Made by a program: the position numbers and the translations under genes | Shown: positions 7,747 to 12,816 of the stretch, one piece after another | Layout: each line of letters begins with the position of its first letter | Numbering within the stretch: the first letter of the stretch is position 1 | The notes under the pieces: model-generated | Database searches by the model: none | Seen by the model: the letters and a program-made list of their open reading frames with translations, nothing else | What the model was told of the DNA's origin: nothing | Assembly (NCBI RefSeq): GCF_900109545.1 | Contig: NZ_FOAP01000019.1 | Span: forward strand, 1 to 64,000 | DNA: 64,000 nt | Source: Stigmatella aurantiaca | GTDB taxonomy: Bacteria; Myxococcota; Myxococcia; Myxococcales; Myxococcaceae | Direction: 5' to 3'

Positions 7747-9402
7747 ATGCCGTCACACTCCGCAGCGCTCGTGGCCCTGGCCGCGCTTTCCCTCTCCCCG
7801 CTGTCCTACGCCCACTCCAACCCCTCGAAGGGGGTGGCCGCCGAGCCCTCCACCCTCGTGGCCAAGGTGTCCTTCGCCTCCCGGGAGGACCTCAACGGGC
7901 TGGCCGAGAAGCTGGATCTCACCGCCGCCGTGGACAATGAGAACCGCACCGTGGAGGCGCTCCTGTCGCGCGCGGAGTTCGACGCCCTGGTGGCCTCCGG
8001 ACGCAAGGTGGAGCTGCTCGAGGAGCAGACGCGGATCCTCAACGCGCCCCGGGAGCAGGACATGCGCCTGCAGGGCATCTCCGGCTACTCGTGCTACCGC
8101 ACCGTGAACGAGACCTACGCCGCCATGGCCCGGCTGGAGACCACCTACCCGAACCTCGCCGAGTGGAAGGACATCGGGGACTCCTGGGACAAGGTGACCG
8201 CCGGGGGCGCCGCGGGGGATGACCTGCGGGTCTTGATTCTCACCAACAAGTCGCGCCCCGGCCCCAAGCCGCGCTTCTTCCTCATGGGCGCCATCCACGC
8301 CCGCGAGTACACCACCGCGGAGATGGCCACGCGCTTCGCCGAGCAGCTCGCCTCGCGCTATGGCACGGACGCCGACGCCACGTGGCTGCTCGACCACCAC
8401 GAGCTGCACGTGGTGGTGCAGGCCAACCCCGACGGCCGCCGCATCGCCGAGACGGGCGCCTCCAAGCGCAAGAACACCAACACCACCCAGGGCTCGTGCA
8501 ACGCCACCACGTGGGGCGTGGACCTCAACCGCAACAGCAGCTTCGACTGGGGCGGCGGCGGCGCCAGCACCAGCTTCTGCAACGAGACGTACCGGGGCCG
8601 CTCCGCCGCCTCCGAGCCCGAGGTCCAGGCGCTGCAGAGCTACATCCGCTCCATCTTCCCCGACCAGCGCGGCACGGGCTCCACGGACGCCGCGCCCGCG
8701 GATGCCACCGGCCTGTTGATCAGCCTCCACAGCTACGGCGGCTACGTGCTCTATCCCTGGGGCGCCAGCACCACGCCTGCGCCCAACGCCACCCAGCTGC
8801 GGACCCTGGGGCGCAAGTTCAACTATTTCAATGGTTACCAGGCCTGCCAGGTGGCCTCGTGCCTCTACGCGGCCACGGGCTCCACGGATGCGTTCTCCTA
8901 TGGGGAGCTGGGCGTTGCCTCCTACACCTTCGAGATGGGCAGTGCGTTCTTCGAGAGCTGCACCAGCTTCGAGAACACCATCGTCCCGAAGAACATGGGG
9001 GCGCTCTATTACGCCTTCAAGGCCGCGCGCCGGCCCTACCAAGTGAGCGCGGGCCCCGATGCCACCACGCTCGCGCTGTCGGCCAGCACCGTCGCCCAGG
9101 GCACGAACGTGACGCTCTCCGCCCGCGCGGATGACACCCGCTACGGCACCAACGGTGGCACCGAGGCCTCGCAGGCCATCCGCGCCGCGCGCTACTCCAT
9201 CGACGCGCCCTCCTGGGTGTCCGGCACGCCCACCTACACCATGAACCCGGTGGATGGGGCCTTCAACGCCACCGCCGAGGCCGTGCAGGCCACCGTCTTC
9301 ACTGCGGGGCTGGCCCCCGGCCGGCACACGCTCTTCGTCGAGGCCCAGGACAGCCAGGGCAACTGGGGCGTGCCCTCGGCCGTCTTCCTGACCGTGCAGT
9401 GA
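7747..9402 (+). CDS. Secreted M14 zinc carboxypeptidase
   Basis: The 551-residue protein has a Sec signal (PSHSAALVALAALSLSPLSYA) and a pro-region to about residue 105. The M14 catalytic domain carries zinc ligands in GAIHAREY (His184, Glu187) and SLHSYGG (His328), the NPDGRR and WGVDLNRN substrate motifs, and the catalytic Glu396 in YTFEMGS. The last 120 residues form a beta-rich C-terminal domain ending FLTVQ. AAGGAG lies 8 bases before the ATG. It probably removes C-terminal residues from peptides of lysed prey or biomass outside the cell. It lies 30 bases after the metal ATPase on the same strand, but no functional tie is evident. Confidence 0.93.
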   Translation: MPSHSAALVALAALSLSPLSYAHSNPSKGVAAEPSTLVAKVSFASREDLNGLAEKLDLTAAVDNENRTVEALLSRAEFDALVASGRKVELLEEQTRILNAPREQDMRLQGISGYSCYRTVNETYAAMARLETTYPNLAEWKDIGDSWDKVTAGGAAGDDLRVLILTNKSRPGPKPRFFLMGAIHAREYTTAEMATRFAEQLASRYGTDADATWLLDHHELHVVVQANPDGRRIAETGASKRKNTNTTQGSCNATTWGVDLNRNSSFDWGGGGASTSFCNETYRGRSAASEPEVQALQSYIRSIFPDQRGTGSTDAAPADATGLLISLHSYGGYVLYPWGASTTPAPNATQLRTLGRKFNYFNGYQACQVASCLYAATGSTDAFSYGELGVASYTFEMGSAFFESCTSFENTIVPKNMGALYYAFKAARRPYQVSAGPDATTLALSASTVAQGTNVTLSARADDTRYGTNGGTEASQAIRAARYSIDAPSWVSGTPTYTMNPVDGAFNATAEAVQATVFTAGLAPGRHTLFVEAQDSQGNWGVPSAVFLTVQ

Positions 9403-9476
9403 GCCATCCGTTGTAATACCGATGATGCCGGACCGGGCCCCTTGTTTCCCGTTGCGTCACAGGGGGCCCCCCGCAG

Positions 9477-9510
9477 CATCATGGGACACGCGGCCTCGTG
9501 TCCCATGATG
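9477..9510. promoter_or_regulatory. Perfect 14-base inverted repeat at the hybrid kinase start
   Basis: CATCATGGGACACG-CGGCCT-CGTGTCCCATGATG is a flawless dyad with 14-base arms and a 6-base spacer. It contains the candidate start codons of the downstream kinase (ATG at 9481, 9505 and 9508). As DNA it could be an operator; as RNA it would fold into a very stable hairpin hiding the start codon. No T-tract follows, so it is not an intrinsic terminator. Function is inferred. Confidence 0.6.
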
Positions 9511-12500
9511 ACTCCAGCCCCCTCCCCCCCGCCGCAGGACAGCGCCGCCCAGCGTCAGGCCGAGGCGCACCTCCAGGAGCGGGATGAGCAGCTTCGCCTC
9601 GCCCAGCAGGCGGGGGGCATTGGCGCCTTCGCCGTGGACATCCGGACCGACGTGATGTCCACGACCCCGGAGTTCTGCCGCATCTTCGGGGTGGACGTGG
9701 TGGAGGCGATGCCCCCGCGGCAGATCGAAGCCCTCATCGTTCCCGAGGATGCGGCGATTGCCTCCAGCTCGCGCACGCGGGCCGAGGGCACGGTGCCCTC
9801 CCAGGCCGAGTACCGGATCCGCCATGCCCAGACGGGCGAGCTGCGGTGGATCTCCCGGCGGGCGGAGCTCGTCCGGGACGCCGAGGGCCGGCCCGTGCGG
9901 CTCGTGGGCATCGTCCAGGACGTGACCGAGCGCCGGCAGGCCGAGGATGCCCTGCGCGCGGCCAACGAGCGGGTTCAGCTCGCGCTCAACGCGGGCGCCG
10001 TGCTCGGCACCTGGGTCTGGGACATTCCCGCCGTGCGCATCACCGTCGATGCCCTCTTCGCGAAGTCCTTCGGGCTCACGCCCGTGCTGGCCTCCCAGGA
10101 GGTGACGGTCCAGGCCCTGTCGGCCTCCATCCATCCCGAGGACTTTCCCCGCGTGGAGGCGCTCGTCTCCCAGACGGTGGAGAAAGGCCAGCCGCTGCGC
10201 GTCGAGTTCCGGGCCCGGCAGTCCCATGGGGCCTACCTCTGGCTGGAGGCCAACGGCCACTGCGAGCATGACGCGCAGGGCAAGCCGCTGCGCTTCCCGG
10301 GGATTCTGCTCAACATCGACGAGCGGAAGCGGGCGGAGCTTCGCCAGCTGGCCCTCGCCGAGCTGGGCGAGCGGCTCCGGGCACTGGACAGCACCGCGGA
10401 CATCGCCGCGGTGGCCATGGAGGTGGCCGGGCGCCACTTCGGCCTCCTGCGCGCGGGGTACGGCCGGATCCTCACGTCCCAGGGGCAGCTGGTGATCGAA
10501 CGGGACTGGGTGTCCGGGCCCGAGGCTGCGGGGCTGGCGGGCACCTACCGGCTCGCGGACCTCGGGCCGTCCCTGGAGAACCTCCAGCGGGGCGAGCCCG
10601 TCATCATCCCGGACGTGGAGGCGGATCCGAGGACCGCCGGGCAGGCGGCCGCCTTGCGCGAGTACGGCGTCCGGGCGCTGCTCACCGTGCCGCTGCTCGA
10701 ACAGGGGCACCTGGCCGCCGTGCTGTACCTGCACAGCCCGGAGGTCCGCTCCTGGCAGCAGGAGGACATCCAGTTCGTGCACAACGTCGCGGACCGCATC
10801 TGGGCGGCCAGCGAGCGCGTGAAGGTGATGGCGGATCTGCGGCGCGCCAACGAGACGCTCGAGCAGCGCGTGGCCCAGCGCACGCGCGAGCGGGACCGCA
10901 TCTGGAACGTCTCCCAGGACTTGCAGCTCGTGACGGACTTCGAGGGCCGGATCCTCAGTGCGAACCCCGCCTGGACCACGATTCTCGGCTGGGCCCCGGA
11001 GGAGCTGGTGGGCAAGACCACCACGTGGCTCGAACATCCGGAGGACCAGGCGCGGACCCGCGCCGAGGTGGCGCGTCTGGCCGAGGGCCACCGGGTGATG
11101 GGCTTCGAGAACTCCATGCGCCACAAGGACGGCTCCTACCGGCTGCTGTCCTGGATGGCGGTGCCCGTGCCCGAGGACGCTTCCATCTATGCCGTCGCGC
11201 GCGACATCACCGCGCAGCGGCACATCGAGGAGCAGCTGCGGCAGGCCCAGAAGATGGAGGCGGTCGGCAACCTCACGGGGGGCGTGGCGCACGACTTCAA
11301 CAACCTGCTGCAAGTCATCGGCGGCAACCTCCAGCTCCTGGAGCGCGAGATGACCGCCCACGAGCGGGGCCTGCGCCGGGTGCAGACGGCCCTGAGCGCT
11401 GTCGATCGGGGCGCCAAGCTCGCCTCCCAGCTCCTCGCCTTCTCCCGGCGGCAGCCGCTGCAACCCCTGGTGCTGCACCTGGGCCGGCTGGTGCGCGGCA
11501 TGGATGACCTGCTGCGCCGTGCGCTGGGCGAGGATGTCGAGGTGGAGACCGTCGTGACGGGCGGCCTGTGGAACACGTTCGCGGACCCCAACCAGCTCGA
11601 GAACGTCATCCTCAACCTGGCCATCAACGCCCGGGATGCCATGACGGGCCATGGGCGGTTGACGATCGAGGTCCACAACGCCGTGCTCGATGAGCCGTAT
11701 GCCCAGCGCCACCCGGAGGCCGTCCCGGGCCCGTATGTGATGCTGGCCGTGTCCGACACGGGCAGTGGCATGCCGCCCGAGGTGCTGGCGCGCGCCTTCG
11801 AGCCCTTCTTCACCACCAAGTCCGAGGGCCGTGGCACGGGCCTGGGCTTGAGCATGGTGTACGGCTTCGTCAAGCAGAGCGGCGGCCACGTGAAGATCTA
11901 CAGCGAGCTGGGGCATGGCACGACCGTGAAGGTCTACCTGCCCCGCGCGCTCCAGGCCGAGGCGCCGCTCGCCGAGCCCGAGAAGGGCCCCGTCGAGGGG
12001 GGCGCCGAGACGGTGCTGGTGGTGGAGGACGACGCCGAGGTACGGGCCACGGTGGTGGAGATGTTGAGCGAGCTGGGCTACCGCATCCTCAAGGCCGTGG
12101 ATGCCCAGAGCGCGCTGGCCATTGTCCAGAGCGGCCTCCCGGTAGACCTGCTGCTCACCGACGTGGTGATGCCCGGGCCCTTGCGCAGCCCCGACATGGC
12201 GCGGGAGGCCAAGGCCCTGCTGCCGGACCTGGAGGTGCTCTTCACCTCGGGCTACTCGGAGAACGCCATCGTTCACGGGGGCCGGTTGGATCCGGGCGTC
12301 CACCTGCTGAGCAAGCCCTACCGGCGGGAGGACCTGGCGCGCAAGGTGCGCGGCCTGCTCAACGCCCGGTCGCGGCGGCGCGAGAGCCTGGCCTCGCGCG
12401 AGGCCCGGGAGCCGTCCCGGCCCGGGCGGGCGCGCCCGCAGGAGACGCCCCAGCGGCTGCGGGTGCTCCTGGTGGAGGACGATGCGGACATCCGCGCCTC

Positions 12501-12816
12501 GGCGAGCGAGCTGCTGAGCTTCCTGGGCCACGAGGTGCTGGCGGTGGAGAGCGCCGAGGAGGCCCGGGGCGCGCTGGTGGCGGACGCCTTCGACGTGCTG
12601 TTCACGGACGCGACGCTGCCGGGCATGTCCGGCGTGGACCTGGCGCGCGAGGCGGTGCGGCGGCGGGCCGGGCTGCGGATCATCATCGCCTCGGGGCACG
12701 GGCACGCGGCGCTCGAGGACGGAGGGCCCCGGCTGGATGGGGTGGTGGTGCTGCCCAAGCCCTATGCGCTGACGCAGATCCAGCAGGCGCTGTCGCAGGT
12801 GCTGAGCGCCCGCTGA
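9481..12816 (+). CDS. PAS-PAS-GAF-PAS hybrid histidine kinase with two receiver domains
   Basis: The soluble sensor kinase of about 1111 residues has, in order: PAS (about 30-150), PAS (155-275), GAF (285-460), PAS (480-590), HisKA with the phospho-His in GGVAHDFNNLL (about residue 604), HATPase (NLAINARDAM, DTGSGMP, GTGLGLSMVYG), and two receivers (VLVVEDDAEVR with TDVVMPG; LLVEDDADIR with TDATLPG) each ending in a KPY motif. No membrane helices are present, so it senses an intracellular cue. The GVAHDFNNLL box and NtrB-like organisation are common in myxobacteria. The start is uncertain: ATG 9481, 9505 and 9508 and TTG 9442 are in frame, none has a good binding site, and the region forms a perfect inverted repeat. 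Confidence 0.93.
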   Translation: MGHAASCPMMTPAPSPPPQDSAAQRQAEAHLQERDEQLRLAQQAGGIGAFAVDIRTDVMSTTPEFCRIFGVDVVEAMPPRQIEALIVPEDAAIASSSRTRAEGTVPSQAEYRIRHAQTGELRWISRRAELVRDAEGRPVRLVGIVQDVTERRQAEDALRAANERVQLALNAGAVLGTWVWDIPAVRITVDALFAKSFGLTPVLASQEVTVQALSASIHPEDFPRVEALVSQTVEKGQPLRVEFRARQSHGAYLWLEANGHCEHDAQGKPLRFPGILLNIDERKRAELRQLALAELGERLRALDSTADIAAVAMEVAGRHFGLLRAGYGRILTSQGQLVIERDWVSGPEAAGLAGTYRLADLGPSLENLQRGEPVIIPDVEADPRTAGQAAALREYGVRALLTVPLLEQGHLAAVLYLHSPEVRSWQQEDIQFVHNVADRIWAASERVKVMADLRRANETLEQRVAQRTRERDRIWNVSQDLQLVTDFEGRILSANPAWTTILGWAPEELVGKTTTWLEHPEDQARTRAEVARLAEGHRVMGFENSMRHKDGSYRLLSWMAVPVPEDASIYAVARDITAQRHIEEQLRQAQKMEAVGNLTGGVAHDFNNLLQVIGGNLQLLEREMTAHERGLRRVQTALSAVDRGAKLASQLLAFSRRQPLQPLVLHLGRLVRGMDDLLRRALGEDVEVETVVTGGLWNTFADPNQLENVILNLAINARDAMTGHGRLTIEVHNAVLDEPYAQRHPEAVPGPYVMLAVSDTGSGMPPEVLARAFEPFFTTKSEGRGTGLGLSMVYGFVKQSGGHVKIYSELGHGTTVKVYLPRALQAEAPLAEPEKGPVEGGAETVLVVEDDAEVRATVVEMLSELGYRILKAVDAQSALAIVQSGLPVDLLLTDVVMPGPLRSPDMAREAKALLPDLEVLFTSGYSENAIVHGGRLDPGVHLLSKPYRREDLARKVRGLLNARSRRRESLASREAREPSRPGRARPQETPQRLRVLLVEDDADIRASASELLSFLGHEVLAVESAEEARGALVADAFDVLFTDATLPGMSGVDLAREAVRRRAGLRIIIASGHGHAALEDGGPRLDGVVVLPKPYALTQIQQALSQVLSAR

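Follow-up and report, generated by a model that had tools for sequence, protein, structure and literature searches.

A perfect inverted repeat over the likely start codons of a hybrid histidine kinase gene in Stigmatella aurantiaca, with imperfect counterparts in three related species

The likely start codons of a hybrid histidine kinase gene of Stigmatella aurantiaca lie inside a perfect 14-base inverted repeat with a 6-base spacer, CATCATGGGACACG-CGGCCT-CGTGTCCCATGATG, which occupies positions 9477-9510 of the window (the whole 64-kb stretch of DNA analyzed here). Comparison with three related species suggests that this dyad goes back to an older, imperfect repeat, present in one part of the genus and perfected in S. 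aurantiaca. As our leading explanation, which we hold tentatively, the start-site repeat became a perfect hairpin that would lower the translation of the kinase or make it conditional.

The dyad and the kinase start site

The sequence at this place agrees exactly with the original prediction of a 14-base dyad without mismatch. The left arm (hairpin H2; 9477-9490, forward strand) matches TCATGTGACAC in three relatives, the spacer CGGCCT that would form the hairpin loop (9491-9496, forward strand) has 6 bases in G001 and 5 bases in G005 and G004, and the right arm (9497-9510, forward strand) contains the likely start codons. When one mismatch is tolerated, the arms extend to 17 bases with no spacer between them.

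Among the 19 close perfect inverted repeats found in the window with arms of at least 9 and a spacer of at most 20 bases, the dyad has the longest arms, the runners-up having arms of 11. Of 60 first-order Markov sequences as long as the window, one contained arms of 14 and none contained longer arms, and a chance origin of such a long dyad in the window is unlikely, as had been proposed. A sample of 464 kb from the same genome, comprising the window and 20 further stretches, contains three repeats with arms of 14 and five with arms of at least 12, the dyad counted. On crude gene calls, the three longest are the dyad itself, one repeat between converging predicted genes (L149:1903-1938) and one within a predicted frame near its start, so this class of repeat is rare and not unique. 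The repeat between the converging genes, also a perfect 14-base hairpin, is not followed by a T run.

The gene downstream (9505-12816, forward strand) encodes a hybrid histidine kinase of 1103 amino acids, counted from 9505, with PAS, GAF, HisKA and HATPase_c domains and two receiver domains, in line with the predicted location of the dyad on the start of such a gene. Three ATG codons are indeed present within the dyad (9481, 9505 and 9508), but one of these three proposed starts is less likely than the others, as the ATG matching 9481 runs straight into TGA in all three relatives (L006, L007 and L008). In contrast, all four species have an in-frame ATG at 9505 or 9508: both are found in S. 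aurantiaca and G005, the second in G001 and the first in G004. The two consecutive codons at 9505-9510 (forward strand), both ATG in the window, correspond to GTG ATG in G001, ATG ATG in G005 and ATG CCG in G004. For these reasons the kinase most likely starts in the right arm, which shifts its probable start from 9481 to 9505/9508. Since an in-frame GTG is found in the left arm of G005 and G004, as is the in-frame ATG 9481 in the window, the right-arm start is the probable one rather than the proven one. No good Shine-Dalgarno sequence is evident in the 18 bases preceding the right-arm ATG. The start-stop (ATG-TGA) upstream of the kinase has been lost in the window, leaving the in-frame upstream ATG 9481.

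Change of the repeat within the genus

The kinase gene is preceded by a gene for an M14 zinc carboxypeptidase (7747-9402, forward strand), whose stop codon is separated from the dyad by 74 bases, and followed on the opposite strand by a GH10 gene that also encodes a ricin-type lectin domain. The order of M14 carboxypeptidase, hybrid kinase and GH10 is common to G001, G005 and G004 of the same genus, and their kinases are 90%, 80% and 80% identical to that of S. aurantiaca, respectively. In G002 and G006 the kinase relatives reach 67%, and neither genome contains a carboxypeptidase match anywhere; G003 has distant kinases only (best E 1.5e-39) and likewise no carboxypeptidase match. No dyad was seen at the kinase starts of G002 and G006 in a scan that would miss imperfect dyads; covering perfect arms of at least 8 and one fold each at the other orthologues (L009-L011), the same type of scan was also blank on G001, G005 and G004, known carriers of imperfect copies. 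L012 and L013 were left out of the start comparison, as their frames extend further upstream. The dyad is known from four of the seven genus genomes.

The expectation that the dyad would be conserved in relatives holds in part: it is found at the same place in all three syntenic relatives and includes one compensated pair, whereas its perfection is absent there. The arms form 14 of 14 pairs only in S. aurantiaca, 12 in G001 (one of them U-G), 13 in G005, where the left arm carries two extra bases, and 10 in G004. Counted over all four syntenic loci, 49 of the 56 stem cells are paired (87.5%), compared with 50% at most when the partner arm is slid. An A.C mismatch common to G001, G005 and G004 is gone in the window, so that an imperfect ancestor and a more perfect descendant can be distinguished, as in a quasipalindrome.

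With the direction of change polarized by these three relatives, the stem acquired three changes in the S. aurantiaca lineage: T to G at 9484, A to C at its exact partner 9503, and C to T at 9501. The first two make up one compensated pair and the third repairs the A.C mismatch; the loop also changed, at 9492 and 9496. Perfect pairing results from 78 of the 88,452 possible triples of changes to the stem as inferred for the ancestor. The perfection of the dyad is compatible with either a template switch that corrected the quasipalindrome or selection for base pairing. In the first case, the left arm would have mutated once, at 9484, and a template switch would then have rewritten the right arm at 9501 and 9503 after the sequence of the left. 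Such a sequence of events could account for all three stem changes, as could selection for pairing, which may have favored the perfection of the stem. Given the prior change at 9484, a single copying event would suffice for 9501 and 9503, while the two loop changes do not fit it.

In E. coli, template switching makes quasipalindromes more perfect (PMC7202029), and compensatory changes in RNA stems can arise by the same process (PMC8794818). The dyad resembles the E. coli mutations (PMC7202029) in being an imperfect repeat perfected by one arm coming to match the other. It differs from them in that its history is deduced from four species rather than from observed mutants, needs a prior left-arm mutation and leaves the loop changes unexplained. 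As in the template-switch changes of RNA stems (PMC8794818), two partner bases changed together and a mismatch was repaired in one stem and one lineage; in contrast to those stems, the dyad is located at the start of a protein gene, not in a structural RNA, and shows three stem changes only.

Template switching needs no selection (PMC8794818, PMC7202029), which favors the alternative that the dyad is functionless, being a chance quasipalindrome kept by local genome similarity and perfected by mutation alone. We regard this as rather unlikely. It is consistent with the occurrence of the dyad in only four of the seven genus genomes, with a weak hairpin in two of the four species and with the comparison of G005 and G004, in which the stem diverged faster than its flanks (4 of 28 vs 2 of 55 positions). 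The opposite is indicated by the retained pairing and by the comparison of G001 and G005, which differ at 2 of 28 positions in the stem and at none of the 5 in the loop, compared with 6 of 35 upstream and 12 of 20 just downstream. The substitution rates are therefore mixed, as if the dyad were held between G001 and G005 and not between G005 and G004. In the S. aurantiaca lineage, five changes fall in the 33 dyad columns vs 134 in the 6,158 columns of the whole locus, a density matched or exceeded at three other places of the 6.4 kb locus. Of 500 shuffles, 117 reached the covariation score and 29 the paired share; drawn from four sequences, both statistics are weak.

Predicted folding and kinase translation

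Hairpins that sequester the start codon in mRNA are a form of cis-acting translational control. The dyad is similar to them in that one arm of a hairpin predicted to be strong contains the start codon and a ribosome site is not evident nearby; in contrast to examples with a defined trigger or expression effect, it is known here from sequence and predicted folding. Our literature search retrieved no report of myxobacterial start-codon hairpins at histidine kinases.

The proposed hairpin over the start site in RNA is supported by a very strong predicted fold of the dyad in S. aurantiaca (-25.2 kcal/mol, z -5.5), matched by none of 500 shuffles. The folds of the relatives are -15.5 kcal/mol in G001 (z -4.6; as low in 0 of 500 shuffles), -13.9 in G005 (z -1.9; 20 of 500) and -9.4 in G004 (z -1.7; 40 of 500). 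The start codon is thus paired in a fold that beats shuffles in S. aurantiaca and G001, and more weakly in G005 and G004. The segment spanning -44 to +11 around ATG 9505 ranks second of 558 ATG candidates in the 464 kb, these candidates coming from 278 genes that were called crudely. For comparison, inverted repeats are few in a small region before start codons of E. coli (PMC6060812).

A second hairpin, H1, is predicted just upstream of the dyad (9435-9469, forward strand). It has the block TTTCCCRTTGCGTCAC in all four species; its loop is conserved, and in two of its stem pairs both partners have changed. Its support from folding is modest, with shuffles as low in 23, 20, 43 and 99 of 500 cases for S. 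aurantiaca, G001, G005 and G004, respectively. When the dyad and H1 are folded together, the corresponding numbers are 0, 3, 29 and 247, the last being shuffle-like.

The preferred role of the dyad is damped or conditional translation of the kinase, provided that transcription begins upstream. In an mRNA begun upstream, the hairpin would bury the kinase start codon, with no evident Shine-Dalgarno site nearby, and the buried start would lower translation or make it conditional, most strongly in S. aurantiaca. In a leaderless mRNA the left arm would be missing from the transcript. If this role is real, the four species represent one start-site hairpin at graded strengths, and this series would provide a test of template switching as a retuner of the translation of signaling genes.

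An elaboration of this role involves an alternative pairing of TTGCGTCACA with TGTGACACG, which joins the loop side of H1 to the left arm at -8.3 to -9.5 kcal/mol in the relatives and -5.5 kcal/mol in S. aurantiaca. In the same comparison the alternative and the dyad are even in G004 (-9.5 each), and the dyad is favored in G005 (-9.5 vs -14.9), G001 (-8.3 vs -12.5) and S. aurantiaca (-5.5 vs -22.1). The ancestral H1 and alternative pairing might then have formed an on/off switch that is now locked towards off, the template switch having strengthened the start-codon hairpin and reset kinase translation; we consider this version very unlikely.

Operator and transcript-end alternatives

The further suggestion of the original prediction, a strong site for a dimeric protein in the DNA, fits less well with the joint symmetric changes and with a spacer of either 5 or 6 bases. 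It is quite improbable, in our estimate, that the dyad serves the kinase promoter as an operator bound by a dimeric repressor. The symmetry is strong and the left-arm sequence is kept in three relatives, as an operator would have it, but in the S. aurantiaca lineage the symmetric bases changed jointly from T/A to G/C, preserving complementarity and not sequence, and the spacer differs between two species with 6 bases and two with 5. The joint change makes an operator less likely because the half-site, and not mere symmetry, is expected to persist.

A protein operator would often recur at other sites. In the genome of S. aurantiaca, the core pattern with up to two mismatches occurs at nine places per strand (one exact, one with one mismatch and seven with two) vs seven in the control. 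The best other match, with one mismatch (G000:C33), lies within a reading frame, close to the end of that frame. A relaxed pattern without mismatches found only the S. aurantiaca and G005 loci in the seven genus genomes and missed the G001 and G004 copies. A second pattern without mismatches, by design unable to match the S. aurantiaca copy, found only the G005 locus in 96 family genomes, missing the copies of S. aurantiaca, G001 and G004. Because the patterns missed known copies of the dyad, the absence of a second site is weak evidence against an operator. Similarly, no sigma-70-like site was found at 9200-9700, but 0.0 were expected from shuffles, so this negative result says little about a promoter.

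Alternatively, the dyad, alone or with H1, could mark the 3' end of the carboxypeptidase transcript or terminate it, as a hairpin that lacks a U run and reaches the next start by chance. This appears fairly unlikely to us. In its favor, the dyad accompanies the carboxypeptidase: it was not seen in G002, G003 and G006, none of which has a match to that gene, and the fetched flanks of L009-L013 yielded no carboxypeptidase. On the other hand, the dyad is followed by ATGATGACTCC and not by a T run, and therefore differs from an intrinsic terminator, which consists of a GC-rich stem and then a T run. No terminator-like sites were found at 9200-9700, though shuffles also gave almost none. Since the dyad spans the kinase start, transcripts ending there would require the kinase transcript to begin inside or past it. 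H1 is closer to the stop codon, and in three of the four syntenic loci no other 45-base fold is as strong, which makes it a better candidate than the dyad for the 3'-end hairpin of the carboxypeptidase gene. The block TTTCCCGTTGCGTCACAGGGGG, which was considered as a promoter and is read instead as part of H1, is present at the four loci and, with three mismatches, at one extra place in G004.

Folds past the carboxypeptidase stop codon were inspected, without a shuffle control, over 220 bases in 12 of the 18 matches listed, four of them syntenic. In six of the eight non-syntenic copies the strongest 45-base fold begins no more than 36 bases from the stop and shows no visible T run, and hairpins of this U-less kind may be common at 3' ends in these bacteria. 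A 3'-end role is accordingly conceivable, and likelier for H1 than for the dyad. The six copies with a fold near the stop are L157, L161, L162, L163, L164 and L165.
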